64,000 nucleotides of DNA, taken from NCBI RefSeq assembly GCF_013343005.1, contig NZ_CP054491.1:1222501-1286500 (forward strand), read 5' to 3'. The DNA comes from Candidatus Reidiella endopervernicosa (lineage in GTDB: Bacteria; Pseudomonadota; Gammaproteobacteria; GCF-013343005). Below are positions 1,514 through 21,689 of the stretch, in pieces. Both the position numbers and the translations under genes were made by a program. Every line of letters begins with the position of its first letter. Position 1 is the first letter of the stretch. The notes beneath the pieces were generated by a model. That model was not told the DNA's origin, did not search any database, and saw only the letters and a list, made by a program, of their open reading frames with translations.

Positions 1514-1755
1514 CCAAGCCAAGCAAACAGCAAAACTTCACGCGACCGTTTATGCCTGCGGCGCCCGACGTCCTGCGTTCGTTGCGTAATCACCTCTTCG
1601 CTGCTCTACACAACTCCCTCAGTGACTCTACGCCGACATAAAGCCGCTGCTGCATCTTCTCCGTCGTTCGCTCGCGCTCTCAACTACGAATAGGCAGACG
1701 GCGTCGACTATCGGGGACTAACCGCCCTCACTTCGCTCTCCATGGCGGTCAGCGG
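1478..1755 (-). repeat. Hairpin-ended dispersed repeat, copy 1 (longest)
   Basis: Read on the minus strand, this about 278-bp unit starts CCGCTGACCGCCATGG and ends AATAGCGACTCCC. The same sequence occurs at 6330-6597 and, 5'-truncated, at 20701-20888. It carries an inverted repeat at its 5' end (GACCGCC/GGCGGTT) and an imperfect one near its 3' end (one G lost compared with the other copies). No transposase ORF fits inside. Its last bases form the start of the chemoreceptor gene. It also lies about 60 bp upstream of birA, so it may influence both genes. The class is unknown; a non-autonomous element moved in trans, such as an IS200/IS605-type derivative, is possible. Confidence 0.85.
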
Positions 1756-4493: not shown

Positions 4494-5687
4494 ATGTCGG
4501 TTGTGCTGTTTACCTGGGAGCTAGGCGCAGGCATGGGGCATGTGATGCCCTATATCAACGCAGCAAAGCGTTTGGTTGATAATGGTCATGACGTGGTCTT
4601 TGCAATGCGTGAACTCTCACGCGCCGAACGACTGTTCGAGGGAACCGGGATTCGCTACATCCAGGCGCCTTCGCAGGTAAAGAAGATCGAGGCACCGATT
4701 CGCCCCACCAACAGCTATGCGCAGATCATTCATAACACCGGCTTCTCCGATGTCTATCGCCTGACTGCACTGGTACGTGCATGGCAGGAGCTCTACAGGA
4801 TGGTCAAACCCGACCTAGTAGTACTTGACCACAGTCCGAGCGCCTTGATCACCTCTAAAGGCTTTGAACTAAAGCGAATTTTAATTGGCAGTGGGTTTTT
4901 CATTCCCCCTTCCGATGAACAGCTGCCGATGCTCTTCACCAGTCCCAAGACCGATGATGAAAAGGTTCGAAGTGACGAACAGCAGGTGCTCGACAAAATC
5001 CTCGAAGTAACCAAGCGGCTTGCTCTCCCCGAGATCAACTCCTGGAAATCGATGTTTGATGTCGATCGCAAGCTCTTTAGAACCTTCAAAGAACTCGATC
5101 ACTATGGAGGGCGTGATGATTGCGAATATCTCGGTATAGGACCAGATAAGCCAGGCGTAGAACCTGGCTGGCCTGAAGGAAGAGGCAAGCGTGTGTTTGC
5201 CTATCTCAAGCCATTTAAAACCCTCCCGGCACTACTGCAGATGCTCAATAAGTTCGGAAATCCGACACTGATATATGGCGATGGTATCAAGCAGGAGACC
5301 AAGGATCGATTTAGCTCAAAGACACTGAAGTTTGTCGATCAGCCGCTCGATATGGGGCTGGTGGGTAAAAGTGCGCAGGTAGCTATAACTAACGCCAATC
5401 ACGGTACCATCGCCTCTCTGCTGTTGGCGGGTTTGCCTCAACTGCTACTGCCACTTCAACTTGAACAGATGATTCTTGCCAGCCGTGTGGCGGCACTGGG
5501 TGTTGGTCTTGCTGCTCCAAAGCTACGTCAGGGCGGCATGGCCAATAAGTTCAAGCAGCTCTGTGAGGATGAGCGCTATCAAAAGGCGGCTGATGAGTTC
5601 GTACAGAGAAACATCAATTTCGATCGCGAAACCCTTACAAGTCGTTTGGTAGAGGTGGTTCAGAAGCTGTTGAAACATGGTGAATAG
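4494..5687 (+). CDS. Glycosyltransferase, UGT/MGT-like (GT1 type, GT-B fold)
   Basis: A 397-residue protein that should transfer a sugar from a nucleotide donor to a small molecule, lipid or glycan. The N-terminal half begins VVLFTWELGAGMGHVMP (residues 3-19), matching the first Rossmann strand and Gly/His loop of GT1 enzymes such as macrolide or sterol glucosyltransferases. The C-terminal third has the donor-binding pattern ANHGTIASLLLAGLPQLLLP followed by an LEQMILASRV motif. No signal peptide or membrane segment is evident, so it is cytosolic or peripheral. It starts 105 bp after tRNA-Thr with a GGGAG-type ribosome site (ATG 4494) and may be transcribed from the tRNA promoter. The acceptor cannot be told from sequence. 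It is the first gene of the island and is followed at once by a sulfotransferase remnant. Confidence 0.8.
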   Translation: MSVVLFTWELGAGMGHVMPYINAAKRLVDNGHDVVFAMRELSRAERLFEGTGIRYIQAPSQVKKIEAPIRPTNSYAQIIHNTGFSDVYRLTALVRAWQELYRMVKPDLVVLDHSPSALITSKGFELKRILIGSGFFIPPSDEQLPMLFTSPKTDDEKVRSDEQQVLDKILEVTKRLALPEINSWKSMFDVDRKLFRTFKELDHYGGRDDCEYLGIGPDKPGVEPGWPEGRGKRVFAYLKPFKTLPALLQMLNKFGNPTLIYGDGIKQETKDRFSSKTLKFVDQPLDMGLVGKSAQVAITNANHGTIASLLLAGLPQLLLPLQLEQMILASRVAALGVGLAAPKLRQGGMANKFKQLCEDERYQKAADEFVQRNINFDRETLTSRLVEVVQKLLKHGE

Positions 5688-5697
5688 GAGCTGAATG

Positions 5698-5878
5698 CTG
5701 CTCGGTTACTGGAAGCGCTTCCATTTCCAGATGGCCATCTCCGGTGTGGTCGGTATGCCGGCCACTCGCATTATCCCCTCCGGTGTCGAGGCGATGGCCA
5801 GGCAGGTGATCGACGAGGTCGAGGCGCTCTGAAAAGTCTGGTCTCTCTTCCCCGAGAGGCGATCGACCTGCACCTCTA
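5698..5878 (+). pseudogene. Sulfotransferase 3' remnant
   Basis: Bases from 5699 closely match the sulfotransferase gene from 21400 (reading LLGYWKRFHFQMAISGVVG in one frame). The copy lacks about 100 bp present there and keeps a degraded end matching 21600-21690, with a premature TGA. The end (CGAGAGGCGATCGACCTGC...TAAG) aligns with the intact gene's last codons. It has no start and no P-loop. It starts 11 bp after the glycosyltransferase stop, suggesting that glycosyltransferase and sulfotransferase were once neighbours, or that a gene end was duplicated here. Confidence 0.88.
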
Positions 5879-5901
5879 AGCGGAGACTACAGCGCAACAA
5901 C

Positions 5902-5962
5902 CACAGCGCCCCATCTCATCGTATGCCAGCAAGGATATGGCGGGGTGGGGCGCTGTGGTTTT
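5902..5962 (+). terminator. Intrinsic terminator (duplicate of 21713-21772)
   Basis: Long hairpin: ACAGCGCCCCAT arm and GGGGTGGGGCGCTGT arm around a 25-base loop, followed by GGTTTTG. It is nearly the same sequence as the terminator after the intact sulfotransferase, and so belongs to the same duplicated segment. Confidence 0.8.
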
Positions 5963-6297
5963 GAGATTGAATCGTTACAGCGCAATTTTGATGGCGAATC
6001 ACGAGGTGGGGTCTGATACGAGTCCGAGTAAAGGGACTAAATATTCCTGATTCTGGGCGGGCGAAGTGTCGATATTGCGCCACTTTAGAGTCATATCAAT
6101 AGGATAGATTCTGTTAATTGTGTCACATTAATAAATTAGTAACTCCTTATTTAATATGGGGTGTTGACTTGATTGTGACGGAAGTCTCAGAATGCAACGC
6201 TAACTAATTTGTGAAGGTATGCGAAGGCCGTTTTGATAGCGGTCTTAAATAAGAATTTTAACTATCGCAGTGGCAGCTGCGGCTAGGAGAAGAAAAG
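5963..6297 (+). promoter_or_regulatory. AT-rich region upstream of the adhesin gene
   Basis: About 335 bp without a gene, clearly more AT-rich than the flanks. A candidate promoter is TTGACT (6164-6169) with CAGAAT 18 bp on (6188-6193); the match is moderate. A good Shine-Dalgarno site, AGGAGA (6285-6290), sits 7 bp before ATG 6298, the apparent original start of the adhesin gene. No operator palindrome was recognised. Confidence 0.45.
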
Positions 6298-6336
6298 ATG
6301 ATCACCGTTCAGAAAAAGGAACTGTTCCACCGCTGA
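6298..6336 (+). pseudogene. Severed native 5' end of the adhesin gene (12 codons)
   Basis: ATG 6298 has a strong ribosome site and encodes MITVQKKELFHR, then TGA at 6334, which is the first base triplet contributed by repeat copy 2. Removing the 264 bp 6334-6597 joins ...FHR directly in frame to WRRAKRNKQEV..., giving a normal long, positively charged TPS signal-peptide N-region. The short ORF may still be translated as a leader peptide. Confidence 0.8.
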
Positions 6337-6597
6337 CCGCCATGGATAGCGAAGTGAAGGCGGTTAGCCCTCGATAGTCGACGCCGTCTGCCTATTCGTA
6401 GTTGAGAGCGCGAGCGAACGACGAAGAAGATGTCGGCGTAGAGTCAGTGAGGAAGTTGTGTAGAGCCGCGAAGAGGTGATTACGCAACGAACGCAGGACG
6501 GTCGGGGCGCCGCAGGCATAAACGGTCGCGTGAAGTTTTGCTGTTTGCTTGGGCTTGGATGCCCAAAACAAACTTTCGCAAAATAGCGACTCCCCAG
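6330..6597 (+). repeat. Hairpin-ended dispersed repeat, copy 2, inserted in the adhesin gene
   Basis: Same unit as at 1478-1755, in plus orientation, with a 16-bp internal deletion (the CAGCAGCGGCTTTATG block between short ATG repeats is missing) and scattered substitutions. The 5' hairpin is GACCGCC (6335-6341)/GGCGGTT (6359-6365). The 3' hairpin is TTGGGC (6549-6554)/GCCCAA (6561-6566). The in-frame ATG used by the adhesin (6559) straddles the loop and arm of that 3' hairpin. The inserted length of 264 bp is a multiple of three. No target-site duplication is visible. Confidence 0.88.
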
Positions 6598-9500
6598 TGG
6601 CGTCGTGCGAAACGTAACAAACAGGAAGTTTCGGTATGTGCGCGGCTAACGCTGGCAGGAACCCTTGTTTTCACCACGGTTTCAGCCAATGCCGGTCCGG
6701 TTGGCGGAGAGATCACAGTCGGTTCAGGTAGCATTACCCAGAACGATGCCGATACCTTAATAGATCAAACAACGAATCGATTGGATATCGACTGGCAAGA
6801 CTTCTCCAGTGAAGTCGGTGAATCGATCACCTTCGCTCAACCCAATGAACTCTCTATTGCGATCAACCGTGTAATCGGTGGAGTACCAAGTGAGCTAAGA
6901 GGCGCGCTGACTGCCAACGGTCGCGTCTTCATTATTAATGACGCTGGTATTACCTTCCACGGTACTTCACAGGTTAACGTCGGCTCTCTGATCGCCACCA
7001 CTGCCAATACCCTCAATGAAGATGACGGCAGGTTCTCCTTCATCGGTAGCGGCACCGGCAACGTTATCAACCACGGTTACATCACCGTCTCCGAGGGCGG
7101 CTTCGCCATTCTTGCTGCGCCCTACGTAGAGAATACCGGTTATGTGCAGGCTGACCTCGGCGAGGTTCATCTTGCGGGCACCAACAGCTTCTCGCTCGAT
7201 CTGAAGGGTGATGGCCTGATCAACTTCGTCGTCTCAGATGAAAATGCGGATGTGATTGCTGCTGAGGGTGACAAGCTTGGTGTCGATAACAGCGGCACCC
7301 TTCGTGCGCGCTCTGGTTTGATCACCATTACTGCAGAAACCGCATCACAGATGATCGATAGCATTATCGGTCTGAATGGTGTGATCGACGCGGATGCCTT
7401 CGCTGAAGATGGAAACGGCGGTACCGTGCTGCTCGATAGCCGTGGAAGCATCGAAATCAATGATGGCGCAGTGATTAGTGCAGATGCAGGTGCCAATGGT
7501 GACGGTGGTACCGTGCTCACCTGGGCTGACCAGATCAACTACTTCAAAGAAGGCGCGAAGATTTCTGCGCGTGGTGGTGATGAGACAGGTGACGGTGGTT
7601 TTGTTGAGGTCAGCGCCAAGAAGGTCGTCTTCCAGGGCGGTATCGACGCATCCGCGCCAAATGGTGAGAATGGTGTTTTGCTAATTGATCCCGATCATAT
7701 TGTCATTTTGGATCAAAGTGCCACAACTTCCGGAGTTTCTGGATCGACTATTAATGCGACATCAGCTGCTACATCAGGCTCGATTACATACATCAAAGAA
7801 GACACCATTGAGGGTTTGAGTGCGGATGTCTTTCTTGAGGCAAACCAGTCAATCACCATGAATGACCTCGTGACCGATGGCGTACTCGATCTTGGCGATT
7901 ACAATATCGTTCTACAGACATTGAACGCCGATGGTTCAATCGCTTTTGCCAATACCGATAACACTATTCGTGCTGCTGCGGGCGATGTCACAATCAGGAC
8001 GCTAAATACCTCGCTTTCAGCATCGGCTGCGGCCACAACAGCACAGATAGCCGCTTCAGGTGCGGTCAATATCGGTAACATCGAGATCACCGATGGTGGT
8101 TCGCTGACCGTCAAGGCGGGTAACGGCGATCTGAATATCGGATCGATCGACGTGCATGCTGGCGACGGCAATGATCAGACAGCGCTCGCCGATGTTGATC
8201 TTCACGCCTTCGGCACCAGTGCGGATGTGGTGATTAATGGCGATGTCTCAGTAACTGCGCAGGCCGATCACAACTTGAATACCGGTGGTACTGATGAGAC
8301 GGCCTCGGCTATGGCTACTCTTGACGTCACGGCGGGTAATAATATTCGTCTCAATGGCGATCTGAGCGTTGATGCGCAGACCCTCTCCTCCTCAAATCGT
8401 GCAATTGACGGTTCGGGTGCGTCGGTCCGTGCGCGGGCAACCGCCGCCGCCACACTTGTGGCAGATGGCGTGCATCTGAGCAGTGATGGATCTCCGGCGC
8501 TCTACAGCGTAACGGCAGGTGTAACCGCCAACAACAACAGTGCGGTTACGACAGCAGACGATGGTGCAGAGGCGTCAGTTTTCGCTAGTGCGGATTTGAG
8601 TATTACTGCAAATGAGGCTGATATCGAGCTGGATGGCAGTGTGAACGTAGCTGCAAATGCCTACGGATATAACAATAGTGCGACGGCAGAATCTGCTGTT
8701 GCGATCACTACGGTCACGGCGATAGCAAATGCCAGCTTCATGGCTAATGAGGATGTGATTCTCCACGGTGACAGCAATCAGGTTACTGCTTCAGCGATTA
8801 GCTCACAGAATCACGCGTCTGCCGATAATAGTGATGTGGCCTATGGCGGTGCTGTGGCTTATGGCACGTTGATGGTGAGCGCGAGTGGCGATGCGACGGT
8901 CGAGGGCTCGGTATCTATCGATGTCGATGCGCAGTCGTTAAAGAATAATGTTAAGGCCGAGGGAGATTATGCGCACGGTGGTGCGGCAGCCTATGGTCTG
9001 ATGAGCGTGATTAGCAGCGGGGTCACGGTCACCGACGGTATAACGGTTGATGCGATTACGATCGATGTCGATGCGCTTTCAGATGAGAATACCGTGGTAG
9101 CCAAGGACGTTGTCGATGGTGGCGCTTCATACGGCATTGCTAATGCCTATGCCGATGCTGAGCTATCACTGCAGGCGGTCGATGGTGGGGTTACGATTAA
9201 TGACGATGTAACCGTTTCGGCGACTGCGGACAGTATCGATAACGATGCTTCGGCCTCCTATGGTGCCTATGCGATGGCGCGTGCCGCGGCCTCGGTTGAT
9301 ATTGATGCAGAACTCTCATTCGAGACCGATTACGGTATTAGTGTGACTGCCGATGCCCTGACGAACAGCAATAACGTTGATGTTCCTCTCCTTGGTTATG
9401 GTGCAATAGCAGCTGCGATGGCGGATGCACAGCTCAACGTTTCAGTCGATGACGGCACAAGCAGCGGTAGCGCGTTTGTTGCAATGTCGGGTTTTGATGT

Positions 9501-12500
9501 GCTCGCATCAGCTCAGACGCTAAACAATACGGTTGACGGTGGCCAGTACGGTGCATACGCAAATGCATCTGCTGATGCTAATGCGACTATCCTCGCGCAG
9601 GACTCAGTCACCATCAATGGTAGTGGAGATGTCGAGGCATACGGCCTCTCCAGTGATAATACGGTTGATGTGATTGAAGAGTTTGCGCGTGCCGATGCCT
9701 CCGTTGAGGCTGATCTGGTGGTAACGGCCTATGGCGAGAATGGCTCTGCAGCATACGGTGGCATGGTAAGCGTCACCGGCGATTTGGGTGTAACCGCCTC
9801 GGCTGAGACCTATGGAAACAGTGTCGTTGGATATGGTGTGATCCCATCCGATTTATTGGTCGCGAATGCCTATGGTGACGCAACAGCCACTATCAACGGT
9901 AAATATGGTGTCTCGCTGACTGGCGACCTTGACGTAAATGCGGTGGCCTTAAGCAGCTCGAATCTGGTCTCTGCCAGTTATGGCGTTGGCGCGCTTGCAT
10001 CTGCGCTTGCATCTGCCGATGGTCAAATCATTACTGAATATGGTGCAGTGACTGTCGATGGTGATGTCTCTGTCGCAGCAGATGCCGAGACCTATGGAAA
10101 CACGGTAAACGCCTACGGTTCAGGTGCTAACGCTCGAGCCAGCGCCAATGCCACTGGCCGTATCTATAGCGAATATGGTGCTGGCGTTTCCATGATCAAC
10201 GACTCCGATCTGGTTGTGACGGCCGATGCGCTTGCCAGTGGCAATATTGTCACGGCCTCCTATGGTGATTTTGCAGTGGCTGATGCCTACGCATCCGCCT
10301 ACGGTTATGTCGAAGCCGATGATGGCGTGGTCGATGTTGATGGCACGGTCAGGATTGATGCAACCGCAGAATCGATCGGTAATACCGTTTCCGTCGGTGA
10401 GGATACTGTGAGAGCCAATGCCGATGCCGATGCCTATGGCTATGCCTACGGTGCCTATGGTGTGTCGCTGGGCAGTACTTCATCAAGCGGTGGGATGGAC
10501 GTCTCGGCCGTTGCACTCTCCTCATCCAACACAATTACAGCCGCAGGCTCTGAGGCCTATGGCAGTGCTGAAGCATCAGCATATGGAGCTGTGATTGCAC
10601 CGGTAGGTGTGGCACAGGTGACAGGAGCTATGTCTGTCGAGGCCGATGCCAAGACCTATGGCAATGTCTTAGTCGCCTACGGTGATGATTCAGAAGGTGC
10701 ATCATTTGAGGCCGATGCCAATGCGAACGCCCGCGGGGTGGTTATGGGTGAGGCTGCCGTGGTGCTGGGCAGCGGTTCAAGCGATGGCGATATCCAGGTG
10801 ACAGCCACCGCCATCTCCTCGGCCAACGATATGTCTCAGTTTGGCAGTCAATATGGAACGGCATGGGGCAGCGCAAATGCAACCGCCTCTGCCTATGTCT
10901 TCTCACCCAACGTGGTCTACGGGGCCGGTACTGTTGAGGTGACTGCGGATGCGCAGTCGGTTAGCAATAGTGTTGATGTGGCGGCGAGTTCAGATGGCGG
11001 TAGCGTGCATCTAGATGCGTTTGCAAGGGCCTACGGCGAGATTCTGGGTTTCTACGGAGTAATGCTGGGCGGTAGTTCACATGAGGGTGGTGTAGATGTC
11101 ACCGCGACAGCTCTCTCCTCGGGTAACTATGGCGTTGCAGGGGCGGATGGTGGTGATGTTCATGCCAGCGCGGATGCCTATGGTACTGCGGGTGTTAATG
11201 CGCCTTATGGTGAGGTTGCAGTGACCACGATAGCCGCTTCTGCCAGTGCGCAATCCCTGGGCAATAGCGGCTTTGCCGATGATGGCTACGGTGTCGTCAA
11301 TGTGGACGCCAATGCCTTTGCCGTGGCGTACGGCAATGCGATGTACGGTGTCTCAATAGGCGATGGTACACATGCGGGTGATCTGACTGCGGTAGCCACC
11401 GCGATCTCTTCGAATAACTACGGTGTGGCGGGCGAATACGGGACCGTGAATGTTGATGCAACGGCGTTGGCCGGAGGCACGATTTATACCCCATACGGCA
11501 GTATCAATGTGATGGGTGACATGACGGTTTCGGCTGAAGCACTGGCTTCGAGTAACTTTGCCGAAGTGGGAAGCTACGGCACCGTCAACGGTGATGCGGA
11601 TGCCCTCTCACTCGGTTACGTGCTTGCACCATACGGTGTCATCAGCCCCGAGGATAATTCGACCACCATTACCGGTACTCTCGAGGTCAGCGCAAATGCT
11701 GAGTCTTACGGAAATGTTGGCTTCACTTCGGGTGACTATGGCAGTGTAGAACTGGGTGCTAGTGCAGATGCGTTTGCGTTTGTGCTCGATGTGACTGAGA
11801 ACGGCATCACGCTCGGTAGCGCCTCAGGCGAGGGCGATCTGACAGTAAGTGCAACGGCCATCTCCTCTAATAACTACGGTATTGTCAGGGATTATGGTGT
11901 TGTAACGGCGAATGCAGATGCCTACGGACTCGGTGTTCTGGTAGCTGCCTATGGTATCGATGTTATGGGAACAGCAGGAGTCACTGCTGATGCACAGTCT
12001 GTCGAGAACTGGGTGGTCACTCCCAAGTCTTATGGGAATGATCTGCACCTAGAAGCGAATGCAAATGCACGCCTTCTTGTTGATTCTGAAGCGGGTGATG
12101 TAACCATCGGAACATCTGACGGTGGCGGGATTAATGTTGCAGCGACAGCGCTCTCCTCGGGTAACTACGGTGTAGTCGGTTATGGTGGCGATATCTTCGG
12201 TAGCGCCATGGCCTATGGTGTGGCCACCGTCTTTGCAGACGGAGATTTGGGTTCGAGTTACGGCGGTCATATCCAGGTGACCGGTGTCTCATCGGTCAGC
12301 GGGTCAGCTGAATCGAAAAACAATACCCTGATGGCCTACAGCTCTAGTTACGAGGCTTCAAGTGACGCTGTTTACGGCACGCTTGTTGATGCCAAAGCGA
12401 ATGGTTACGGCGTTGGTCTTCTGGCTGCAGAGTACGGTGTCACGTTGGGTAGTGGTTCTACTGAGGGTGACTTCACCGTTAACGCACATGCACTCTCATC

Positions 12501-15168
12501 GAACAATCTGCTCGTCGCATCAGATGCGGAATACGGTGTACAGGTGGAAGGCAGTGCCGATGCGCTTGCCACGCTCATTATTGATACTGACTACGGCTCA
12601 ATCACAGGCGCTGGAGAAATAACGGTTTCGGCTGATGCCTACGGCCTGGCAAATCAGGCCTACGGATATACCTCGAATGACCCCTATTACGGCGCTGAAT
12701 CAATAGCTGATCTGGATGTTGAGGCCGCTGCGTACTTGATGATGAATGGGCCTGATGGTGTCTCGCTAGGGGATGCCTCTCATGCCGGTGATATTACCGT
12801 TACTGCAGATGCGCTCTCCTCAAATAACTACGGCTACCTCAGTTCACAGGACAATGTAAATGCAAGTGCCCAGGCGAGTGCTTCTGGTGAGGTTTATGCT
12901 GAATATGGAACGGTGTTTATCAGTGGTTCAATCACAGCTTCTGCTGAAGCGACCACGCTGAATAACACGGCAGTGGCTGCAGAAGACGCCGACGCCGATG
13001 CCGATGCCGACGCTAACTTCTCTGTTGCCGGTACCTACGGAGTAACGCTTGGAAGTGCGAGTGGCGCTGGGACCGTCACGGTGTCTGCAGTGGCGCTCTC
13101 ATCAGGTAATGTCGTTTCCGCCTCCTACGGCGGTCTTGATGCCAGTGCCGAGGGTCGCGCTCGGGCCGATGTCGAGGCTGATTACGGAGAGGTGGTGATC
13201 ACTGGTGGCGTTGAAGTCACAGCAAGTGCGGACTCAATTGATAATGCGGCATATGGCTCTTATGTCATAGGTGAAACAGAGGTCGATGCAGATGCCTACG
13301 GCTATGCCGAAATCTATGGCGAGGATGGTGTAACTCTCGGTAGCGCCTACGGTGCTGGTACGGTGGATGTTACCGTTTCGGCGCTCGCTTCAGGCAACTA
13401 TGCGGTGGTTGGTGCGGGTGTTGTGCACGGTGGTGAATATGGAAGAGAGGTGTTTGGTAGCGCCGAAGCATATGGACAGGCGGTTATCGTCGCTCCTGAT
13501 GGAGAGGTGGAAACCGTTGGTTCGGTGACTGTCGATGTAGCTGCCGAGACCAAGGGCAATACCCTGTCGAATCTGGCATACGGTAGTGCGGCTTCCTACG
13601 GCGGAAATGTAAACGCCTACGGTAATGCTTACGGTGTCGCTTACATCGCAGGTGAGTATGGCGTGACCATCGGTGAGTCCTCCTCGGAAGCCGGTGTCTC
13701 TGTGACAGTCGATGCGCTCTCATCAAACAACACGGTCGTCTCTGAGTATGGAGCGGTCCTGGCGAGTGCGAATGCATATGGCTACAACAAGATCTATGCG
13801 GATAACGGTTCGATCTCTATCAACGGTTTGGTTGAGCTGACGGTTGATGCGCAGTCTTTGAACAATGTTGCCTCAGCGCTTGATCAAGGAAGTTTGGGTA
13901 GAGATGTCGATGCAGATGCGGACGCAGAGGCATACGGCAGTGTCGATATTCGCGGTGAGGATGGCGTCACGCTGGGTAGCGCGGCACACGATGGCGGGAT
14001 GGTTGTTAGTGTCGATGCGCTCTCTTCGGGTAATAAGGCCTTCTCCGAGTATGGCAATGCCTTCGCCAGTGCTGATGCGATCGGCTACGGCGAGATCGAG
14101 GCCGATGAGGGTGAGGTTACAATCACGGGTAGCGTGACCATTGAGATTGATGCCCAGGCGGCCAACAACACCGCATCTGTCGGTGCTTCTTACGGTGGGT
14201 ATGCCTCCGCAGATGCCGATGCCGAAGGATACGGTTATGTAGCAGGCCAGTATGGCGTGACGATTACCGGCTCTGAATATGGCGCCATTAATGTTGCTGT
14301 GACAGCTGACTCTACAAGCAACATGGCCTATGGCATTAGCTTTGCCGAGGCGGGGGCCGAGGCGTGGGCCTATGGTTATGGAGTTTCTAATTACGGTGCA
14401 GTCTATATAACCGGTGACGTATCGGTGTCGGCCGACGCACGGTCTGTTAACAACGATGTCCTGTCATCAAGTGGTTCTGCCTATGGCCAGGCATCTGCGG
14501 TTGCCTCCGCATCGATCAACGCCTATGGCGATGTGACGGTCGGAACTGCATCGGCGAAGAGCGATATCGATGTTTCAGCGACTACCCTGAGCTCTGGCAA
14601 TACAGTGAATGCTTCTAGCGGTGCTGATGTGAGTGCTGATGCTGAAGCCTTTGCCGATATCTATTCGAGCTACGGTGAGGTCAATGGTGTAGGCGATATC
14701 TCGGTCACTGCCGATGCGAGGTCGATTGGAAACTCGGCAGATGCCATTAGTGGTGATTCAGCACAGGCCTATGCCGATGCAACGGCTGATCTCGATATTA
14801 GAGGGCCATATGGTGTAAGTCTCGATGGCGATGTAGCGGTTAGCGCTGCAGCGCTATCCTCAAATAACATGGTCTCCGCCTCGAGTAGTTATGCCAGCGC
14901 CTGGGCGTGGGGTAGTGCGGATGCCGATGTTGAAAGCAGTTACGGAAGTGTTGCGATTACCGGTGCCTTTGAAGTGACAGCCGATGTGCAGTCACTGGAT
15001 AACGAGGTCTACGGCTATTACTACGGTTATGCGAGTGCAAGCGCAAATGCCAATGGTGACCTCGTTGGCAATACGGGAGTGTCTGTCGGTTCGGTAACGG
15101 TCACAGCGTCGGCACTGAGCTCTAGTAACTGGCTTCGGTCTACTACGCTGGTTACGGTGGCGCAATAG
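6559..15168 (+). CDS. Giant two-partner-secretion (TpsA) filamentous adhesin, N-terminal and central part
   Basis: An exported adhesin of the filamentous-haemagglutinin type. From ATG 6559 the first 13 codons come from the repeat. A charged N-region, the hydrophobic core LTLAGTLVFTTV and an ANA cleavage site form an extended Sec signal peptide. The TPS domain follows (about 250 residues), with hallmark text such as NRVIGG, LTANGRVFIINDAGITF and VNVGSLIATTAN. After that come dozens of degenerate repeats of about 45-60 residues (VTVSADALSSNN...A.A.AYG...GEVTITG), as expected of a beta-helix. Tyr-Gly occurs about 100 times by hand count. Asp and Ala are very frequent; Lys/Arg are rare and mature Cys is absent. 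An in-frame TTG at 6538 is an alternative start. The frame ends in a spurious 14-residue tail after a frameshift near 15131; the protein clearly continues to 18768. TpsB follows directly. Confidence 0.88.
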   Translation: MPKTNFRKIATPQWRRAKRNKQEVSVCARLTLAGTLVFTTVSANAGPVGGEITVGSGSITQNDADTLIDQTTNRLDIDWQDFSSEVGESITFAQPNELSIAINRVIGGVPSELRGALTANGRVFIINDAGITFHGTSQVNVGSLIATTANTLNEDDGRFSFIGSGTGNVINHGYITVSEGGFAILAAPYVENTGYVQADLGEVHLAGTNSFSLDLKGDGLINFVVSDENADVIAAEGDKLGVDNSGTLRARSGLITITAETASQMIDSIIGLNGVIDADAFAEDGNGGTVLLDSRGSIEINDGAVISADAGANGDGGTVLTWADQINYFKEGAKISARGGDETGDGGFVEVSAKKVVFQGGIDASAPNGENGVLLIDPDHIVILDQSATTSGVSGSTINATSAATSGSITYIKEDTIEGLSADVFLEANQSITMNDLVTDGVLDLGDYNIVLQTLNADGSIAFANTDNTIRAAAGDVTIRTLNTSLSASAAATTAQIAASGAVNIGNIEITDGGSLTVKAGNGDLNIGSIDVHAGDGNDQTALADVDLHAFGTSADVVINGDVSVTAQADHNLNTGGTDETASAMATLDVTAGNNIRLNGDLSVDAQTLSSSNRAIDGSGASVRARATAAATLVADGVHLSSDGSPALYSVTAGVTANNNSAVTTADDGAEASVFASADLSITANEADIELDGSVNVAANAYGYNNSATAESAVAITTVTAIANASFMANEDVILHGDSNQVTASAISSQNHASADNSDVAYGGAVAYGTLMVSASGDATVEGSVSIDVDAQSLKNNVKAEGDYAHGGAAAYGLMSVISSGVTVTDGITVDAITIDVDALSDENTVVAKDVVDGGASYGIANAYADAELSLQAVDGGVTINDDVTVSATADSIDNDASASYGAYAMARAAASVDIDAELSFETDYGISVTADALTNSNNVDVPLLGYGAIAAAMADAQLNVSVDDGTSSGSAFVAMSGFDVLASAQTLNNTVDGGQYGAYANASADANATILAQDSVTINGSGDVEAYGLSSDNTVDVIEEFARADASVEADLVVTAYGENGSAAYGGMVSVTGDLGVTASAETYGNSVVGYGVIPSDLLVANAYGDATATINGKYGVSLTGDLDVNAVALSSSNLVSASYGVGALASALASADGQIITEYGAVTVDGDVSVAADAETYGNTVNAYGSGANARASANATGRIYSEYGAGVSMINDSDLVVTADALASGNIVTASYGDFAVADAYASAYGYVEADDGVVDVDGTVRIDATAESIGNTVSVGEDTVRANADADAYGYAYGAYGVSLGSTSSSGGMDVSAVALSSSNTITAAGSEAYGSAEASAYGAVIAPVGVAQVTGAMSVEADAKTYGNVLVAYGDDSEGASFEADANANARGVVMGEAAVVLGSGSSDGDIQVTATAISSANDMSQFGSQYGTAWGSANATASAYVFSPNVVYGAGTVEVTADAQSVSNSVDVAASSDGGSVHLDAFARAYGEILGFYGVMLGGSSHEGGVDVTATALSSGNYGVAGADGGDVHASADAYGTAGVNAPYGEVAVTTIAASASAQSLGNSGFADDGYGVVNVDANAFAVAYGNAMYGVSIGDGTHAGDLTAVATAISSNNYGVAGEYGTVNVDATALAGGTIYTPYGSINVMGDMTVSAEALASSNFAEVGSYGTVNGDADALSLGYVLAPYGVISPEDNSTTITGTLEVSANAESYGNVGFTSGDYGSVELGASADAFAFVLDVTENGITLGSASGEGDLTVSATAISSNNYGIVRDYGVVTANADAYGLGVLVAAYGIDVMGTAGVTADAQSVENWVVTPKSYGNDLHLEANANARLLVDSEAGDVTIGTSDGGGINVAATALSSGNYGVVGYGGDIFGSAMAYGVATVFADGDLGSSYGGHIQVTGVSSVSGSAESKNNTLMAYSSSYEASSDAVYGTLVDAKANGYGVGLLAAEYGVTLGSGSTEGDFTVNAHALSSNNLLVASDAEYGVQVEGSADALATLIIDTDYGSITGAGEITVSADAYGLANQAYGYTSNDPYYGAESIADLDVEAAAYLMMNGPDGVSLGDASHAGDITVTADALSSNNYGYLSSQDNVNASAQASASGEVYAEYGTVFISGSITASAEATTLNNTAVAAEDADADADADANFSVAGTYGVTLGSASGAGTVTVSAVALSSGNVVSASYGGLDASAEGRARADVEADYGEVVITGGVEVTASADSIDNAAYGSYVIGETEVDADAYGYAEIYGEDGVTLGSAYGAGTVDVTVSALASGNYAVVGAGVVHGGEYGREVFGSAEAYGQAVIVAPDGEVETVGSVTVDVAAETKGNTLSNLAYGSAASYGGNVNAYGNAYGVAYIAGEYGVTIGESSSEAGVSVTVDALSSNNTVVSEYGAVLASANAYGYNKIYADNGSISINGLVELTVDAQSLNNVASALDQGSLGRDVDADADAEAYGSVDIRGEDGVTLGSAAHDGGMVVSVDALSSGNKAFSEYGNAFASADAIGYGEIEADEGEVTITGSVTIEIDAQAANNTASVGASYGGYASADADAEGYGYVAGQYGVTITGSEYGAINVAVTADSTSNMAYGISFAEAGAEAWAYGYGVSNYGAVYITGDVSVSADARSVNNDVLSSSGSAYGQASAVASASINAYGDVTVGTASAKSDIDVSATTLSSGNTVNASSGADVSADAEAFADIYSSYGEVNGVGDISVTADARSIGNSADAISGDSAQAYADATADLDIRGPYGVSLDGDVAVSAAALSSNNMVSASSSYASAWAWGSADADVESSYGSVAITGAFEVTADVQSLDNEVYGYYYGYASASANANGDLVGNTGVSVGSVTVTASALSSSNWLRSTTLVTVAQ
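12983..13013 (+). repeat. Short in-frame hexamer repeat coding Asp-Ala
   Basis: Five successive GCY-GAY units (GACGCCGACGCCGATGCCGATG...) within the adhesin encode DADADADAD. The unit is 6 bp, so slippage here would change protein length without breaking the frame. Confidence 0.7.
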
Positions 15169-16160
15169 CGTCGGCCTCCATAGAAGCGGGAGCACCAAAC
15201 GGCAGTGTCGATGTGACCGGCGATGTGGTGGTTACAGCGGATGGCCAGTCGCTCGGCAACTCTGTCTATGCCACAGGCAGTTACTACGGTTATGCCAGCG
15301 GTGTGGCCAATGCCTACGGTAACTTGACAGGTGATTCCGGCGTCTCTGTCGGTGGTGATGTCACCGTTGATGCCGTTGCGGTGAGCTCCAGCAATGAGGT
15401 GATTACCAGTTACTACTCTGCGGAGGCCTATGCCTCAGCCAATGCAGCAGGTGTGTTCAGTGCCAATGACGGTAGCATCGATCTCAGCGGCGATGTGACG
15501 GTGAACGCGGATGCGCAGTCGATAAACAACTCGATTACGGTGGTTGGATCAGAGTCGGCGGTGGGTTATGGGTACGCAGATGCTGATCTCTCAATTGATG
15601 GTGAAGATGGTGTGTTGATCGGTGGAGACCTGGAGGTCGGGGCGACCGCACGTACCTCGAACAATATGTTCTCAGCGGCTGAGAGTTATGCGTCTGCCAG
15701 TGCATCCGCTGATGTGGTCAGTGAGAGCGGTACTATCGATATCACAGGTGTCTTCAGTGTGGAGGCCGACGCGCAGTCATATAGCAATGAAGTCTATGCG
15801 AGTAACGATGCTGATGCAGGTGCCAGCGCTGATGCGGCCGGTTATCTCACAGGGCAGAAGGGAGTATCGGTCGGTGGTGTTGAGGTGATCGCGAATGCCA
15901 TCTCTTCAAACAATATTGCAACGGCCTCAAGCAATGGTACTGCAACAGCAGGGGCCTACGCATCGGCTGAGTTTTATGGAAGTGCCAGTGATGGTGCGGT
16001 TACTGTGGCGGGTGATGTCGAGTTGAGCGCCGTTGCGCAAAGCACAGGTAACTACGGCGCTGCCTATGGTAGCTACGCCTATGTCAATGCCAATGCCAAT
16101 GCCTACGGTATGCTGACCGGAGCGAATGGCGTGACAGGTATCCGGTGGAGTCGATGTTGA
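15132..16160 (+). pseudogene. Adhesin continuation, frame-shifted segment 2
   Basis: Immediately after the frame break near 15131 the next frame reads LASVYYAGYGGAIASASIE, then GSVDVTGDVVVTADGQSLGN, exactly the repeat pattern of the upstream protein. It has no start of its own with a ribosome site; GTG 15213 is only the first possible start codon in the frame. It ends at a stop after another break near 16138, where the expected text is a GVTV..GGVDVDA repeat. It is part of one adhesin gene, not a separate gene. Confidence 0.85.
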
Positions 16161-16401
16161 TGCGTCGGCAGTCTCATCCGGTAATGTGGCGATTTCGGAA
16201 TACGGCAATGTAACCCTGGCCGGAGCTGATGCTTACGGGATGATGCAGATGTTGGCAAGTGACGGGTAGTGTCGTTGGCAGTGATTTCGATATGTCCGTC
16301 GAGGCTCGGTCAATAAATAACAGCGCGGCTGCGGGTATGGAGTCGCTATTGATGCAGGAGCGCGTGCCTACGGGGCGGCTCTTCTGGTAGGTCAGGATGG
16401 T
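16139..16401 (+). pseudogene. Adhesin continuation, twice-broken segment 3
   Basis: Two more frame changes: 16141-16262 reads SGGVDVDASAVSSGNVAI, and from 16262 the next frame reads TGSVVGSDFDMSVEARS. A last change near 16335 (GYGVAIDAGARAYGAALL) restores the frame used to the end of the gene. Three frame breaks within about 200 bp, with repeat-pattern coding continuing through them, indicate small indels rather than real gene ends. Confidence 0.8.
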
Positions 16402-18768
16402 GTGAGTGTGGGTAGTGATGTTTCGATATCGGTTACCGCACTCTCTTCAGGAAACGATGTTTCCGGTTACGGTATTTTAAATAATGCATACGGTGGGCAG
16501 GCTGTGGCGTTTGCTGATCTGACGGCTTCTGCTGATAGCGGCAGCGTGGTCATAGGCGGCGGTGTAGTGGTGGCGGCAGATGCTGAGTCGGCCTCCAATG
16601 AAGTTTATGTCAGCGATTACGGCGACGCGTACGCATCAGCCGTAGCAAGGGCGGATGGGTATATCCACGCAGACGATGATGTAGTGATCGGCGCTGATGT
16701 TGAGATCTCTGCCGAGGCCGATTCATCGAACAACTCGGCCTATGTCTCCTCAGATGACGCGATAGTTTCGGCATACGGAGTGGCCTACGGCGCGGTTATT
16801 AGTAGTAATGGCAATGTCTCTATTACAGGCGATTTCGAGGTTGCGGCCTCGGCGGATGCCACAGGTAATGAGGCCTACGGTGATGACGATGCGGCTGCTG
16901 GAGCGACGGCAGTGGCCTTTGGAAATATCCTGGCTTATAACTCGGTGGTAGTGGAAGGTGTCTCGGTAACGGCGGACGCTGCGGCCTCAAGCAACTTCGC
17001 TTCAGCGGATGATTTTGTTAACGCAGGCGCAGGGGCGCTTGCCTACGGGTTGGTACTGGCCGAGCATGGTTCGGTGACCGCCTCTGGTGATGTGGGCTTC
17101 TCTGCAGCGGCGGATGCGAACAGCAACACCATACACAGTGAATACGGTGCGGCACACGCAGGCGCCATCGGATACTCGCGTGGATTTGTTACAGCGGACA
17201 CAGGTGTAACTATTGATGGGGATCTCTCGTTTGGCGCAGATGCAACGGCTGCTGACAACGTAGTGATGGCATACGGTATTGGTGACGATGCTGGTGCCAA
17301 TGGCCTCGCGGTGGCAATCGGAATGGCTTCAGCCTCTGATGGTTCTGTTGTGATCGGGGGCGACGCGATGCTGTCCGCAGATGCAGAGACCAGAGGTAAT
17401 AGTGTCGAGGCCGATGAAGATGCATTTGCAAATGCCTACGGTATCGGTGTCATGGGGCTTCACGCTCAGGATGACATCTTGATAGGCGGTGATCTGCTGG
17501 CAAGTGGTGTGGTTTCAGCCAGCAATAATGATGTGGATGGTTCAAGTAACGGGATTGCTGGTGCGACCGGCACGCTCTTTGTTACCACCGAAGCCGATGA
17601 GGGTAATGTTGAAGTAACAGGTGTCGTTGATCTCACTCTTGATGTCGATTCAGTAAGCAATAACGCGAACTCATATGTCGGAGCCTTTGCCTACGGTGTA
17701 GTCAATCTTGAGGGGGCGAACACGATACTCAACTCAGGCGCTTCTGTCTCTGTTGAGGCGCTATCATCAGCCAACGATGGTACCAACGCCCGTGCATATG
17801 GTATGGGGATGTTGTATGCCAATGCTGATGGTGGTGCCGATACGGGTGATCTCACGCTCACGGGTGGTGTGACAGTCGATGGGAACGCATATGCGTATAG
17901 CAACAGTGCATCCTTCACAACTGCCAGTGCTAATGCAGGCGCGGTGCTCACCGCTGATGAGAATCTGACTCTGACGGGTGATATCGATGTCTCGGCCTCT
18001 GCTGAGAATAATCACGATGGTAGCGTCTTCGCAAACGCCTATATGTCGGCGGTTGCGGGAACAGGCAGTGCAAGTGGTGACCTGGTCATTTACGACGATG
18101 TCGCAGTGAGCGCCCATGTGGATTCGGAGTCGGGTAGTAATTCGGCGATCGCCTACGGAACAGCATCAATCTACGCTCTGCACGATGTGAAGGTCGAGGG
18201 TGATATCGATGTGGAGGTTACCGTTGATAAGGATACCGTGGTCGGAGGCTATGGGTATGCCCTGGCAGATATCGCAGCAGGCACAAACGGTTCGTCTGGT
18301 ACCAGTGCGGATGGCGATGTATTCCTGCTGGGTACGGCGAGAACCATGGTTGACTCAGTCGATGAGCAGGTTGTTGAAGATGCACATACCAGAGTCCAGA
18401 CAACTGGCGGTGATATCTATCTGCTGGGTTACGACCCCATTGCAGATGCCACACCGGCGTATCTGCAGACGCATGTAACAGATGAAGATGTCTCAGGTGA
18501 CAGTCGTGCCAGAGTGACTATCACTCCAAATGGTGGTGATACGGTTTGGGGCTATACGGAGGACTGGGAACATATGTTGGTTCTCGAATCCACCTGGCAG
18601 GGCGTGATACTTAAGACGCCGTACGACCCGATGGGACAATTGCCGCCTCTATCTATCGGGCCTAACGGTGAGATCCAGTTCAATAATGGTATTGCCGATC
18701 CGAACCTCGCTGAGGAGTTCTGTAATCGCTTCAGCAAATTCTCCTGCGAGACGGGAGATGCCCTGTGA
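16402..18768 (+). pseudogene. Adhesin continuation, C-terminal segment with cysteine pair
   Basis: Open from upstream of 16402 to TGA 18768; about 788 residues of the same repeat pattern (SISVTALSSGNDVSGYG...), thinning after 18200 into a non-repetitive C-terminal region. The last residues hold the only cysteines of the mature adhesin, CNRFSKFSC, nine residues before the end. In HMW1-type TPS adhesins a C-terminal disulfide loop keeps the protein attached to its transporter, and a similar role is possible here. Its TGA touches the tpsB reading frame (GTG 18765 overlaps). It is an intact reading frame but lacks its own start, hence listed as part of the broken gene. Confidence 0.82.
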
Positions 18769-18784
18769 AAAATAACATGTCTGC

Positions 18785-20416
18785 ATGGTGGGTGTGTCTG
18801 GTGTGGTTTTGGCTGCACCGCTAACCCTGCAGGCGGAATCTCGTATGCCTGGCGTCGTGGATCGTCCCCAGGATGAGTTGCGTGTGGCCCCGGTGTCTCC
18901 TTCGACAGAAGTTACCGATGGTGTTGCCGATTTCAGAGAGCCGGAAAATGGTAATGAAGTTGTTGCCAATGTCAGTCGAGTAAGCTTTCAGGGTAATACG
19001 GTCTTCAAGAGCAAAGCCCTTGAAGAGCTGGCCCAGCCCTATCTGGGAAGTCAGATGACCAAAAGTGATCTGGCTCATCTCAAGTATGAGATTGCTAAGG
19101 CCTATTTCAAGAAGGGCTATATCCTCGTCAAGGTAGTTACTCCTCCTCAGAATATTTCTTCTGGAACTTTGTTGGTGAAGGTCTACGAGGGCAAGGTTGG
19201 CGAGATAAGGCTGCAGGGTAAGGGTGTTAGTCACGCTATGGCCCGAGCCAGAATGCATGAGGTTGATTCGGGCGATATCTTCAATGAGCGAGATGCTGAA
19301 GAGATTACCCGCAATGTTGATGACCTGCACGGCGTTAAAGGTTCATTGAGTGTTGCACCCGGTAAAAAAGCGGGTACTACTGACCTGGTTATGAACGTCA
19401 CCGATGTCTACGATGACTATCAGCAGATAAGTGTGGATAGTTACGGCAGTGAGCTGACCGGAAAGACAACCGTGGGCGGAATCTTTCATCTGAGTAATCT
19501 GATCGGTATCGGCGAGCAGTACGGATTGAAGTTGCGCTATTCCGAAGACGGTTTCTATAGCTACGATATCAATACTGATCTGCCTCTACCGCTGGGTACG
19601 ACAAGTATCGAGGCGAGCTATTTCGGAAGTGATAATGATATCGGTGGTGATTTAGCAGGCTTAGGGGCATCAGGTGAAACTGAGCGCTTCCGTATCGGTT
19701 TTAAAGCATCTCCAGTCAACACAATGCGCCATAAGTTCACTGTGCGTGGCGGCTATGAGGCGAGAGAACATATCTCCTACCTATTTGACATAGAAGAGAC
19801 GCACGACAGCTTGAGAAAACTCTATGGTGAACTGGGTTACACGCATAGATCAGCTCGTGCCGCATTCCATCTTGGTGCGCGAGTTAATGCGGGTCTAGAT
19901 GGTCTGGGTGGGGATGAGCGTTATGAGGCTGACGCATCGAGATTTGCGGGAGATCCTGAAGCAATCATTTTCCAGCCTAGTGTCTATTTGGCATTTATCC
20001 CGACACCTAAGGACCGGATCAATGTCTTTGCGTATGGCCAGTATGCAGATGAGATTACTCTCTCATCAGACCTCTTCTCCATAGGTGGTTATGGCAGTGT
20101 TCGCGGTTTTAGAACCTCGAAAGAGACGGGCGAACATGGTGCAGCTGCAACGATTGACTACACACACACCTTCACCCCAGGCGAGGGCTGGTCGTTTGCC
20201 GTTGGACCTTTCTATGATATCGGCCATGTGGATGGAAAGATTGATGGTGCGATTGTCGATGAGACGTTGCACAGTGCGGGTTTGTCTATGGAGTTGAAAG
20301 CAACGGTTGCCGGAACTTCGCGTTTGCGATTTGATGTTGCAATGCCACTTGGCGACTATAACGATCCGCTAGTAGATGATGCAACCTTCTATGCCCGTTT
20401 TTCACAGCGTTTTTAA
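18785..20416 (+). CDS. TpsB outer-membrane transporter (ShlB/FhaC/HecB family)
   Basis: Partner transporter that recognises the TPS domain of the adhesin and translocates it through the outer membrane. A signal-like segment (MVGVSGVVLAAPLTLQA) and an acidic linker precede a ShlB-type POTRA region (about residues 58-140: VSRVSFQGNTVFKSKALEELAQ, YFKKGYILVKVVTPPQ, VYEGKVGEI). A 16-strand barrel domain ends in an aromatic-final strand (FYARFSQRF). The 543 residues are normal for the family. The start is doubtful: ATG 18785 has no clear ribosome site and no basic N-region, while GTG 18765/ATG 18777 in another frame begin MKNNMSAWW, so a single-base indel in the signal peptide is possible. It is co-directional with the adhesin and overlaps or abuts it. 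Confidence 0.92.
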   Translation: MVGVSGVVLAAPLTLQAESRMPGVVDRPQDELRVAPVSPSTEVTDGVADFREPENGNEVVANVSRVSFQGNTVFKSKALEELAQPYLGSQMTKSDLAHLKYEIAKAYFKKGYILVKVVTPPQNISSGTLLVKVYEGKVGEIRLQGKGVSHAMARARMHEVDSGDIFNERDAEEITRNVDDLHGVKGSLSVAPGKKAGTTDLVMNVTDVYDDYQQISVDSYGSELTGKTTVGGIFHLSNLIGIGEQYGLKLRYSEDGFYSYDINTDLPLPLGTTSIEASYFGSDNDIGGDLAGLGASGETERFRIGFKASPVNTMRHKFTVRGGYEAREHISYLFDIEETHDSLRKLYGELGYTHRSARAAFHLGARVNAGLDGLGGDERYEADASRFAGDPEAIIFQPSVYLAFIPTPKDRINVFAYGQYADEITLSSDLFSIGGYGSVRGFRTSKETGEHGAAATIDYTHTFTPGEGWSFAVGPFYDIGHVDGKIDGAIVDETLHSAGLSMELKATVAGTSRLRFDVAMPLGDYNDPLVDDATFYARFSQRF

Positions 20417-20496: not shown

Positions 20497-20769
20497 ATGG
20501 GTGTCACCATAACCCTGACCGACAAGGAGCTGCCGGCCTCACCGGCGTTCATTGAGTTTGTTCATGCGACACTGACCGACAGCGACTACGATGTTGGTGA
20601 GTGGTTCTATCAGGAGGGGGAGAGCCTAGCGAGGAACGATGGGCGCTTTAAGGATATCCGCGAAAAGGCGCAGTTTGTGGTGGGTCATCCGATTGGTAGC
20701 AAGATGCAGCAGCGGCTTTATGTCGGCGTAGAGTCAGTGAGGGAGTTGTGTAGAGCCGCGAAGAGGTGA
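20497..20769 (+). CDS. Orphan 90-residue protein whose C-terminus is repeat-encoded
   Basis: ATG 20497 is preceded by a good ribosome site (GGGAGA, 20485-20490). The first about 68 residues (MGVTITLTDKELPASPAFIE... to ...FVVGHPIGS) are unique in the window and look like a real, acidic, soluble protein. From 20701 the frame runs into repeat copy 3, which supplies the last 22 codons (KMQQRLYVGVESVRELCRAAKR) and the stop. I do not recognise the family. It may be the truncated front of a longer gene, possibly the original 5' part of the sulfotransferase gene that follows, though the frames now differ. Confidence 0.5.
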   Translation: MGVTITLTDKELPASPAFIEFVHATLTDSDYDVGEWFYQEGESLARNDGRFKDIREKAQFVVGHPIGSKMQQRLYVGVESVRELCRAAKR

Positions 20770-20888
20770 TTACGCAACGAACGCAGGACGTCGGGGCGCC
20801 GTAGGCATAAACGGTCGCGTTAAGTATTTGCCGCTTGCTTGGGCTTGGATGCCCAAAACAAACTTTCGCAAAAATAGCGACTCCCCAG
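20701..20888 (+). repeat. Hairpin-ended dispersed repeat, copy 3 (5'-truncated)
   Basis: Matches the 3' two-thirds of copies 1 and 2, starting AAGATGCAGCAGCGG and ending GCGACTCCCCAG. The 5' hairpin part is missing. It keeps the intact TTGGGC/GCCCAA hairpin. One extra A in the AAAAATAG run puts a different reading frame ([15 protein letters not shown]) into the downstream sulfotransferase. Confidence 0.87.
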
Positions 20889-21689
20889 CGCTTCTTCTTT
20901 GTTATCGGTATTCCACGTACCGGTGGTACTTATCTGACCAAGCAGCTGTTCCGCGCTGCCAACATCGACTATAAAAAGGTCCATAACGCCCTGGCGCATG
21001 ACGGTTTTCCGCACCTCTCGCACCTCTCCTTCAAGGGCAAGGCGAATATGCACACCAACGGTCTGTTGCAGTTTGCCGAGTACCTGACCATGGTCGAGAT
21101 CTACTTCAGCAAACATGGTCGACTTGCCTATCGCAACGGCGTGGTTGTACCGAAGAAGTTCACGAAAGGTGTCTACTACTTCGACCTGATCCGTGAGCTG
21201 ATTGGCGTTAACGCCAACTACCTGCTCACCCTGCGTCACCCGCTCTCGATCTGCCAGTCGGTGATCGACAAGAGTGGTGGCATGCCCGAAGACCGCAAAT
21301 ACGCCCTGCGTAGCGCGATTGAACGCTGGGTGCTCGATGACTGGGTTCACTTTGGTGTGCCGGAGCAGAAGGTGCGTCAGATGGGGTACGTCGAGGCGTT
21401 GCTCGGTTACTGGAAGCGCTTCCATTTCCAGATGGCCATCTCCGGTGTGGTCGGTATGCCGACCACCCGTATTGTCCCCTACGGTGCTGAGGCTATGACT
21501 GGTGCGGCTGGCCAGTTGTTTGAAGACTTCGGTGTTGATATCGAGCCAGAGGAGTTCAAAGTCGCTGAGCCACCCGAGTTCCAGGCAGACGAGGAGGCGA
21601 TGGCCAAGCAGGTGGTTGATGAGGTGGAGGCGTTCTGGAAGAGCCTGGGTCTGAACTTCCCTCGAGAGGCGATCGATCTGCGCTTCTAA
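20835..21689 (+). CDS. PAPS-dependent sulfotransferase-like protein
   Basis: Likely transfers sulfate from PAPS to a hydroxyl on a glycan, lipid, small molecule or protein tyrosine. The 5'-phosphosulfate-binding loop is FFVIGIPRTGGTYLTK (about residues 21-36), comparable to the family GxPRSGTT pattern. The 3'-phosphate motif is LRHPLSICQSV (133-143), with the expected Arg and Ser. No signal peptide, so cytoplasmic. With the TTG start at 20835 it has 284 residues, of which the first 18 come from repeat copy 3. The true start is uncertain because no ATG lies upstream of the P-loop in this frame. It sits after tpsB and an orphan ORF and before a strong terminator; a 3' fragment of it is duplicated at 5698-5878. 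The substrate is unknown. Confidence 0.8.
   Translation: MLGLGCPKQTFAKIATPQRFFFVIGIPRTGGTYLTKQLFRAANIDYKKVHNALAHDGFPHLSHLSFKGKANMHTNGLLQFAEYLTMVEIYFSKHGRLAYRNGVVVPKKFTKGVYYFDLIRELIGVNANYLLTLRHPLSICQSVIDKSGGMPEDRKYALRSAIERWVLDDWVHFGVPEQKVRQMGYVEALLGYWKRFHFQMAISGVVGMPTTRIVPYGAEAMTGAAGQLFEDFGVDIEPEEFKVAEPPEFQADEEAMAKQVVDEVEAFWKSLGLNFPREAIDLRF

Follow-up and report, generated by a model that had tools for sequence, protein, structure and literature searches.

A gene for a sulfotransferase-like protein of about 360 residues, located behind a two-partner-secretion (TpsB) transporter gene of Candidatus Reidiella endopervernicosa, has been split by a mobile repeat of about 283 nt and then apparently shortened by a deletion at the left junction, and is most likely inactivated; we assign this reading a probability of roughly 0.94. 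The locus lies in a stretch of 64,000 nt (the window), to which all coordinates refer. The initial annotation had proposed that an orphan ORF and the neighboring sulfotransferase ORF were halves of one interrupted gene, and homologues that carry both parts in a single frame bear this out. Sequence comparison thus confirms that the orphan ORF and its sulfotransferase-like neighbor are opposite ends of what was once a single gene. What looked like an orphan and a start-less enzyme thereby become one pseudogene with a clear history. In kind the finding is ordinary: a mobile repeat has turned a gene into a pseudogene.

The broken gene lies on the plus strand in three consecutive pieces. The 5' part (20497-20700), the former orphan ORF, comprises codons 1-68 of the sulfotransferase-like protein; it aligns to residues 1-68 of the intact homologues and is 54% identical to the protein of genome G080. 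Its start is an ATG with GGGAG a few bases upstream, and the small ORF as it now reads (20497-20769) has 90 codons for amino acids, 68 native and 22 out of the repeat, with its stop at 20767-20769 within repeat copy 3. The earlier description of a well-initiated 68-residue segment meeting this copy at 20701 was therefore accurate. Copy 3 (20701-20888, plus strand) is 5'-truncated, with about its first 96 nt gone; it matches the full element at 95% from about position 97 onward and ends at a normal right junction with the usual end GACTCCCCAG. The 3' part (20889-21689) extends from residue 96 to the end of the protein, includes the P-loop strand IGIPRTGGTYLTK and shares 61% identity with G080 residues 96-357. 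The native reading resumes with the codon CGC (20889-20891), directly followed by FFFVIGIPRTGGTYLTK, so that the P-loop strand comes at once after the repeat end at 20888 with no native start, just as had been noted. Upstream, the second ORF stays open into the repeat as far as a TTG at 20835; downstream it runs to 21689, and neither half of the gene carries a stop.

An alignment of eight homologues with both window halves located the break: the 5' part ends at G080 residue 68 (HPIGS/HPQGT) and the 3' part begins at residue 96 (RFFFVIG/HFIFVIG). At the left junction two stretches are absent: some 27 codons, corresponding to 69-95 in the closest homologue, and roughly 96 nt from the start of the repeat. 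The disagreement of the two frames had been ascribed to truncation and indels of the repeat; copy 3 is indeed truncated, but about 27 codons of the gene itself are gone as well. Directly upstream of the broken gene stands a TpsB/FhaC-type outer-membrane transporter gene (18785-20416, plus strand). Elsewhere in the window, a second-copy remnant of the sulfotransferase-like gene (5690-5963, plus strand) holds its C-terminal end and downstream region, with identities of 92% over 98 nt and 87% over 114 nt, downstream region included, and stands behind a glycosyltransferase-like ORF (4494-5687).

Intact relatives of the gene, found in other gammaproteobacteria, each consist of one open frame of 355-362 residues, in which the N-terminus corresponds to the orphan ORF and the rest to the sulfotransferase-like ORF. 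When each half was searched separately in 94 genomes, the own genome included, the significant matches of both, apart from those in the window itself and in the remnant (5690-5963), were the same genes of G080 and G008. In G080 the two parts match a single 361-aa ORF in the same frame (E 8.4e-21 and 5.1e-110), and in G008 they likewise match a single ORF in the same frame (E 8.9e-7 and 4.2e-59). No significant free-standing homologue of the small ORF was found outside the intact gene in these 94 genomes; the remaining 13 rows of its search (12 genomes) had E values of 0.11-0.96. The initial annotation had named homologues of the small ORF away from sulfotransferases as the counter-evidence to look for, and the significant ones, in G080 and G008, sit only inside the intact gene.

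With the intact G080 protein as query, matches were obtained in 14 other genomes among 369 searched, the own genome included. In 11 of the 14, counting the query source G080, the match covers residue 1 to at least residue 348 in one open frame without a stop; the N-termini of sulfotransferase homologues, which were to be compared with the small ORF, do begin with its sequence. Of the other three, G210 has a match that stops 15 bases short of a contig edge, in G357 the match begins only at residue 60, the N-terminus of its 367-aa ORF having diverged, and G326 holds the C-terminal part alone, with a stop. The full-length homologues share with the small ORF an N-terminus of the form MG[VL]x[IL]x[IL][ST]D and then S..F, the G357 protein (L114) being the exception. 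Among the matching genomes, the two parts occur as separate ORFs only in the window's own. The gene order of TpsB/FhaC transporter followed by the sulfotransferase-like gene recurs in three genomes (G080, G205 and G309). Where no TpsB was found adjoining (L016 and L107-L111), the gene often stands behind ORFs that are putatively SapC-like and FecR-like. No relatives of the protein were found in viral contigs with an alignment led by the 90-aa ORF as query.

Of ten members of the protein family, five matched the Pfam profile PF13469 (Sulfotransfer_3) at E<=0.1, the best at 8e-5, and the gathering score of 27 bits was not reached (L103, 20.0; window ORF, 13.8), for which reason we call the protein sulfotransferase-like. 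The match spans residues 98-250 and leaves a conserved N-terminal part of about 95 residues outside the profile. Near the start of the domain lies a P-loop-like strand-loop in which G102, P104, R105, G107, G108, Y110, L111, T112 and K113 are nearly invariant; in the sulfotransferase family, such a strand-loop binds PAPS. The predicted likeness to Sulfotransfer_3 thus consists of the P-loop strand and a partial profile match, and the difference from it lies in the sub-gathering scores and in the N-terminal part outside the profile. A homologue on an Acidithiobacillus caldus plasmid is annotated as 'sulfotransferase family protein', and a comparison with solved structures gave no useful match. 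An assignment of the small ORF to a fosfomycin-resistance protein (NCBIfam, 16.9 bits against a cut-off of 260) was judged a chance match and rejected.

The repeat is abundant in this genome. A 27-nt core pattern has 276 matches (at most two mismatches) in the 3.45-Mb genome, 133 forward and 143 reverse, and the reversed control pattern has none. From 85 complete copies, a 283-nt consensus with a mean column identity of 96.6% was derived; these copies came from fetched loci and the window, had both ends recognizable by pattern and are enriched for the plus strand. Copy 3 is not among them because both ends had to be recognizable. The consensus begins with CGCTGACC and ends with GACTCCC(C); in 73 of the 85 copies the next two bases are GG or GA, and no terminal inverted repeats were seen when the consensus ends were compared by eye. 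A C stands four bases upstream of the left end in 84 of 85 copies; the bases at -5/-4 are TC in 39, AC in 29, GC in 16 and AT in one, so that -5 is never C. By eye, the C at -4 is also present in ten relatives with a readable left end, two of which (L098 and L099) share a flank. Covariation between left and right flanks did not exceed the shuffled maximum in the 85 copies, hence no target duplication is seen. Within the window, copy 1 (1476-1754, minus strand) is full length, stands in front of a chemoreceptor-like ORF and served as the reference copy, and copy 2 (6331-6597, plus strand) has a 16-nt internal deletion and lies in the signal-peptide region of an adhesin. Composite arrangements also occur, with two directly abutting head-to-tail units at L070:1257-1822, and with a piece ending at repeat position ~109 directly followed by a full copy at L037:1094-1781.

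Insertion into genes is frequent. Of the 79 copies among the 85 with at least 250 nt of flank, a strict rule counts 26 as interrupting an open frame, 16 in antisense and 10 in sense. About one sampled copy in three thus disrupts an open frame, a warning that the number of genes counted for this genome is inflated. Counting in two bases after the C run, the frame is kept across the element in 15 of the 26 in-gene copies and not in 11. Five pairs of gene halves were compared with Pfam. A glucose/sorbosone dehydrogenase is split without loss into profile positions 1-210 and 211-332, a chemoreceptor has its sensor and HAMP domains on the left and its signaling domain on the right, and a second sulfotransferase is split into profile positions 85-154 and 177-216, with 22 positions unmatched between them; at L077, ferredoxin-type domains lie on either side of the repeat, and at L059 neither half has a Pfam match. 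Genes cut by the repeat in this genome were observed at loci L045, L039, L008 and others. The adhesin had been invoked as the analogue for the splitting of the sulfotransferase: it reads MITVQKKELFH to the left of copy 2 and WRRAKRNK to the right, and since these frames are compatible across the element, the analogy holds. The large adhesin-like region (6538-18768) consists of three ORFs (6538-15168, 15213-16160 and 16402-18768), and it may therefore be broken elsewhere too, in addition to the copy that interrupts its signal peptide.

Three stems near the ends of the repeat are paired in 97.7% of cells of a nine-element alignment, composed of three own copies and six relatives (L090 without the right end, L092 without the first base). 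Eight pairs changed on both sides against 0-2 in slid controls, a count somewhat favored because one of the own copies served to draw the structure; the nine further pair types in the stems were not above shuffles (mean 9.9). Folding free energy (z of -1.13 for DNA and -1.80 for RNA) was no good alone as evidence of structure, for which the covariation count is the better ground. A 21-mer of the right end has exact matches in four contigs of three Methylococcales genomes, and partial matches revealed similar right ends on one Methylobacter and one Methylomonas plasmid. In the Methylococcales loci L090 and L092-L095, the middle has diverged, the ends are conserved and the stems covary. The left 130-190 nt of the repeat match in G080, G015, G035 and G076, while G014 and G049 show weaker matches to the left part, about 50 nt long; a 48-base right-end pattern was found in the own genome only among 369. 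Nothing in Rfam at gathering score covers the repeat copies in the whole window, and at low threshold a frameshift element gave the only, chance-level match (copy 1, E 0.54; L093, E 0.87); at four loci with relatives there was no relevant Rfam match, including over the elements in L093, L094 and L095. The repeat had no match in a phage collection, and we recognized no description of it or of the sulfotransferase-like gene in literature searches.

The orientation of the repeat follows the two chromosome arms in 68 of 85 copies, above the maximum of 61 in 300 shuffles; this count used listed positions (40 of 41, 43 of 45 and 5 of 8 rows, 85 after removal of near-duplicates), the omitted rows being copies in the window, a partial match and positions that had already appeared. 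Close to 0.6 and 2.4 Mb, about where the orientation switches, the flanks change the sign of their GC skew, and this holds when each copy is left out of its own flanks. The genome has three Y1 (HUH) transposase genes, which we take by eye to be RAYT-like. None of the three is framed by both repeat ends within 1.5 kb. An ordinary copy lies about 150 nt downstream of one of them (L100), a weak association that chance could give at an average of one copy per 12.5 kb. A TnpB gene beside the Methylobacter copy (L095) was considered as a partner and rejected, as it lies outside the element and on the other strand; its product had no match in the own genome in a search run without a positive control. 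The orientation bias, the lack of target duplication and the conserved stems fit single-stranded-DNA transposition, which is documented for IS608 and ISDra2 in PMC6006769. The repeat is thus probably a non-autonomous element moved through single-stranded DNA. At somewhat under even odds, it may moreover represent an undescribed family of structured non-coding elements of about 280 nt in Gammaproteobacteria, with conserved ends, covarying end stems and insertion three bases after a C, spread on one replication strand by a trans-acting single-strand (HUH) transposase. The relatives counted in this tentative family come from Methyloprofundus, a Bathymodiolus methanotrophic symbiont, Methylobacter and Methylomonas. 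The Bathymodiolus symbiont belongs to the Methylococcales.

Taken together, the former gene encoded a sulfotransferase-like protein of about 360 residues (about 68 + 27 + 266 codons). The high-copy repeat, about 283 nt, inserted just before codon 96 without detectable target duplication, probably via single-stranded DNA at a replication fork, and one deletion would then have taken codons 69-95 together with the left 96 nt or so of the repeat. Since both losses lie side by side at 20700/20701, a single deletion after insertion of the whole element suffices, and this appears to be the simplest history; the order of the two steps is inferred. The N-terminal piece now terminates in the repeat, and the C-terminal piece would be translated, if at all, only from a start within the repeat such as TTG 20835. 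As the halves are free of stops, a residual product is possible. It is unlikely, if not negligibly so, that the split gene still functions, via two polypeptides or via a C-terminal piece from TTG 20835. The P-loop and the conserved positions downstream of it are kept, and the downstream frame opens into the repeat in the adhesin and in the chemoreceptor-like gene too; however, about 27 residues present in intact homologues just before the first strand are missing, no ribosome-binding site has been shown for TTG 20835, and a recent event accounts equally well for the absence of stops.

Apart from inactivation by insertion and deletion, three further explanations were weighed. The least probable is that two unrelated genes flank the repeat, with the small ORF an orphan and the sulfotransferase starting in or near the repeat. 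The differing frames, the good start of the small ORF and its lack of a Pfam family would suit such an arrangement, but where the small ORF has significant homologues, they form the N-termini of full-length members of this very family, in the same frame. We also regard it as very improbable that repeat copies were collapsed or misjoined in assembly: high-copy repeats commonly cause this, yet the genome is a single contig (100% complete, 0.02% contaminated), and N-part, repeat and C-part are arranged as they would be in a single gene, immediately downstream of the TpsB that also precedes it in G080, G205 and G309. The chance is equally slight that the repeat is an intron or a similar spliced-out RNA and the genes only seem broken, as its conserved stems and the restoration of frame on its removal in the 15 of 26 in-gene copies might suggest. 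Sixteen of these 26 copies are antisense to their gene, Rfam yields no intron match and the genome has no reverse-transcriptase domain; moreover, splicing could not restore a protein whose codons are lost.

With precise junctions in recognizable genes, the repeat is a good test object for the spread of non-autonomous elements that lack inverted repeats along one replication strand, and its family is the part that may deserve separate study. Among known systems, group II introns and other retroelements differ in that a reverse transcriptase (RVT_1) has no match in the own genome, whereas 3 of 14 control genomes have one, and HEARO or other Rfam families differ in that no covariance model matches over the repeat at gathering score. 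Like MITE-like repeats derived from insertion sequences, the element is short and non-coding, present in hundreds of copies, inserted precisely in genes and subject to later loss at one end; unlike them, it shows neither terminal inverted repeats nor target duplication, and is thus not a DDE-type MITE. REP/REPIN sequences moved by RAYT (TnpA-REP) resemble it in high copy number, alongside the three Y1 transposase genes of this genome. In PMC6006769, they are described as short palindromes with a GT[AG]G foot, largely between genes; the repeat here has 283 nt instead of palindromes of 21-65 nt, lies inside open frames in 26 of 79 copies and has no identified GTAG foot. Compared with IS200/IS605-type elements, it has one nearly fixed base (C at -4) in place of a conserved target tetra- or pentanucleotide by the left end, and no autonomous partner sharing both ends was found in this genome; with these elements it shares the lack of target duplication, the stems near both ends and an orientation that follows the replication strand, for which the same paper describes a lagging-strand link (PMC6006769).
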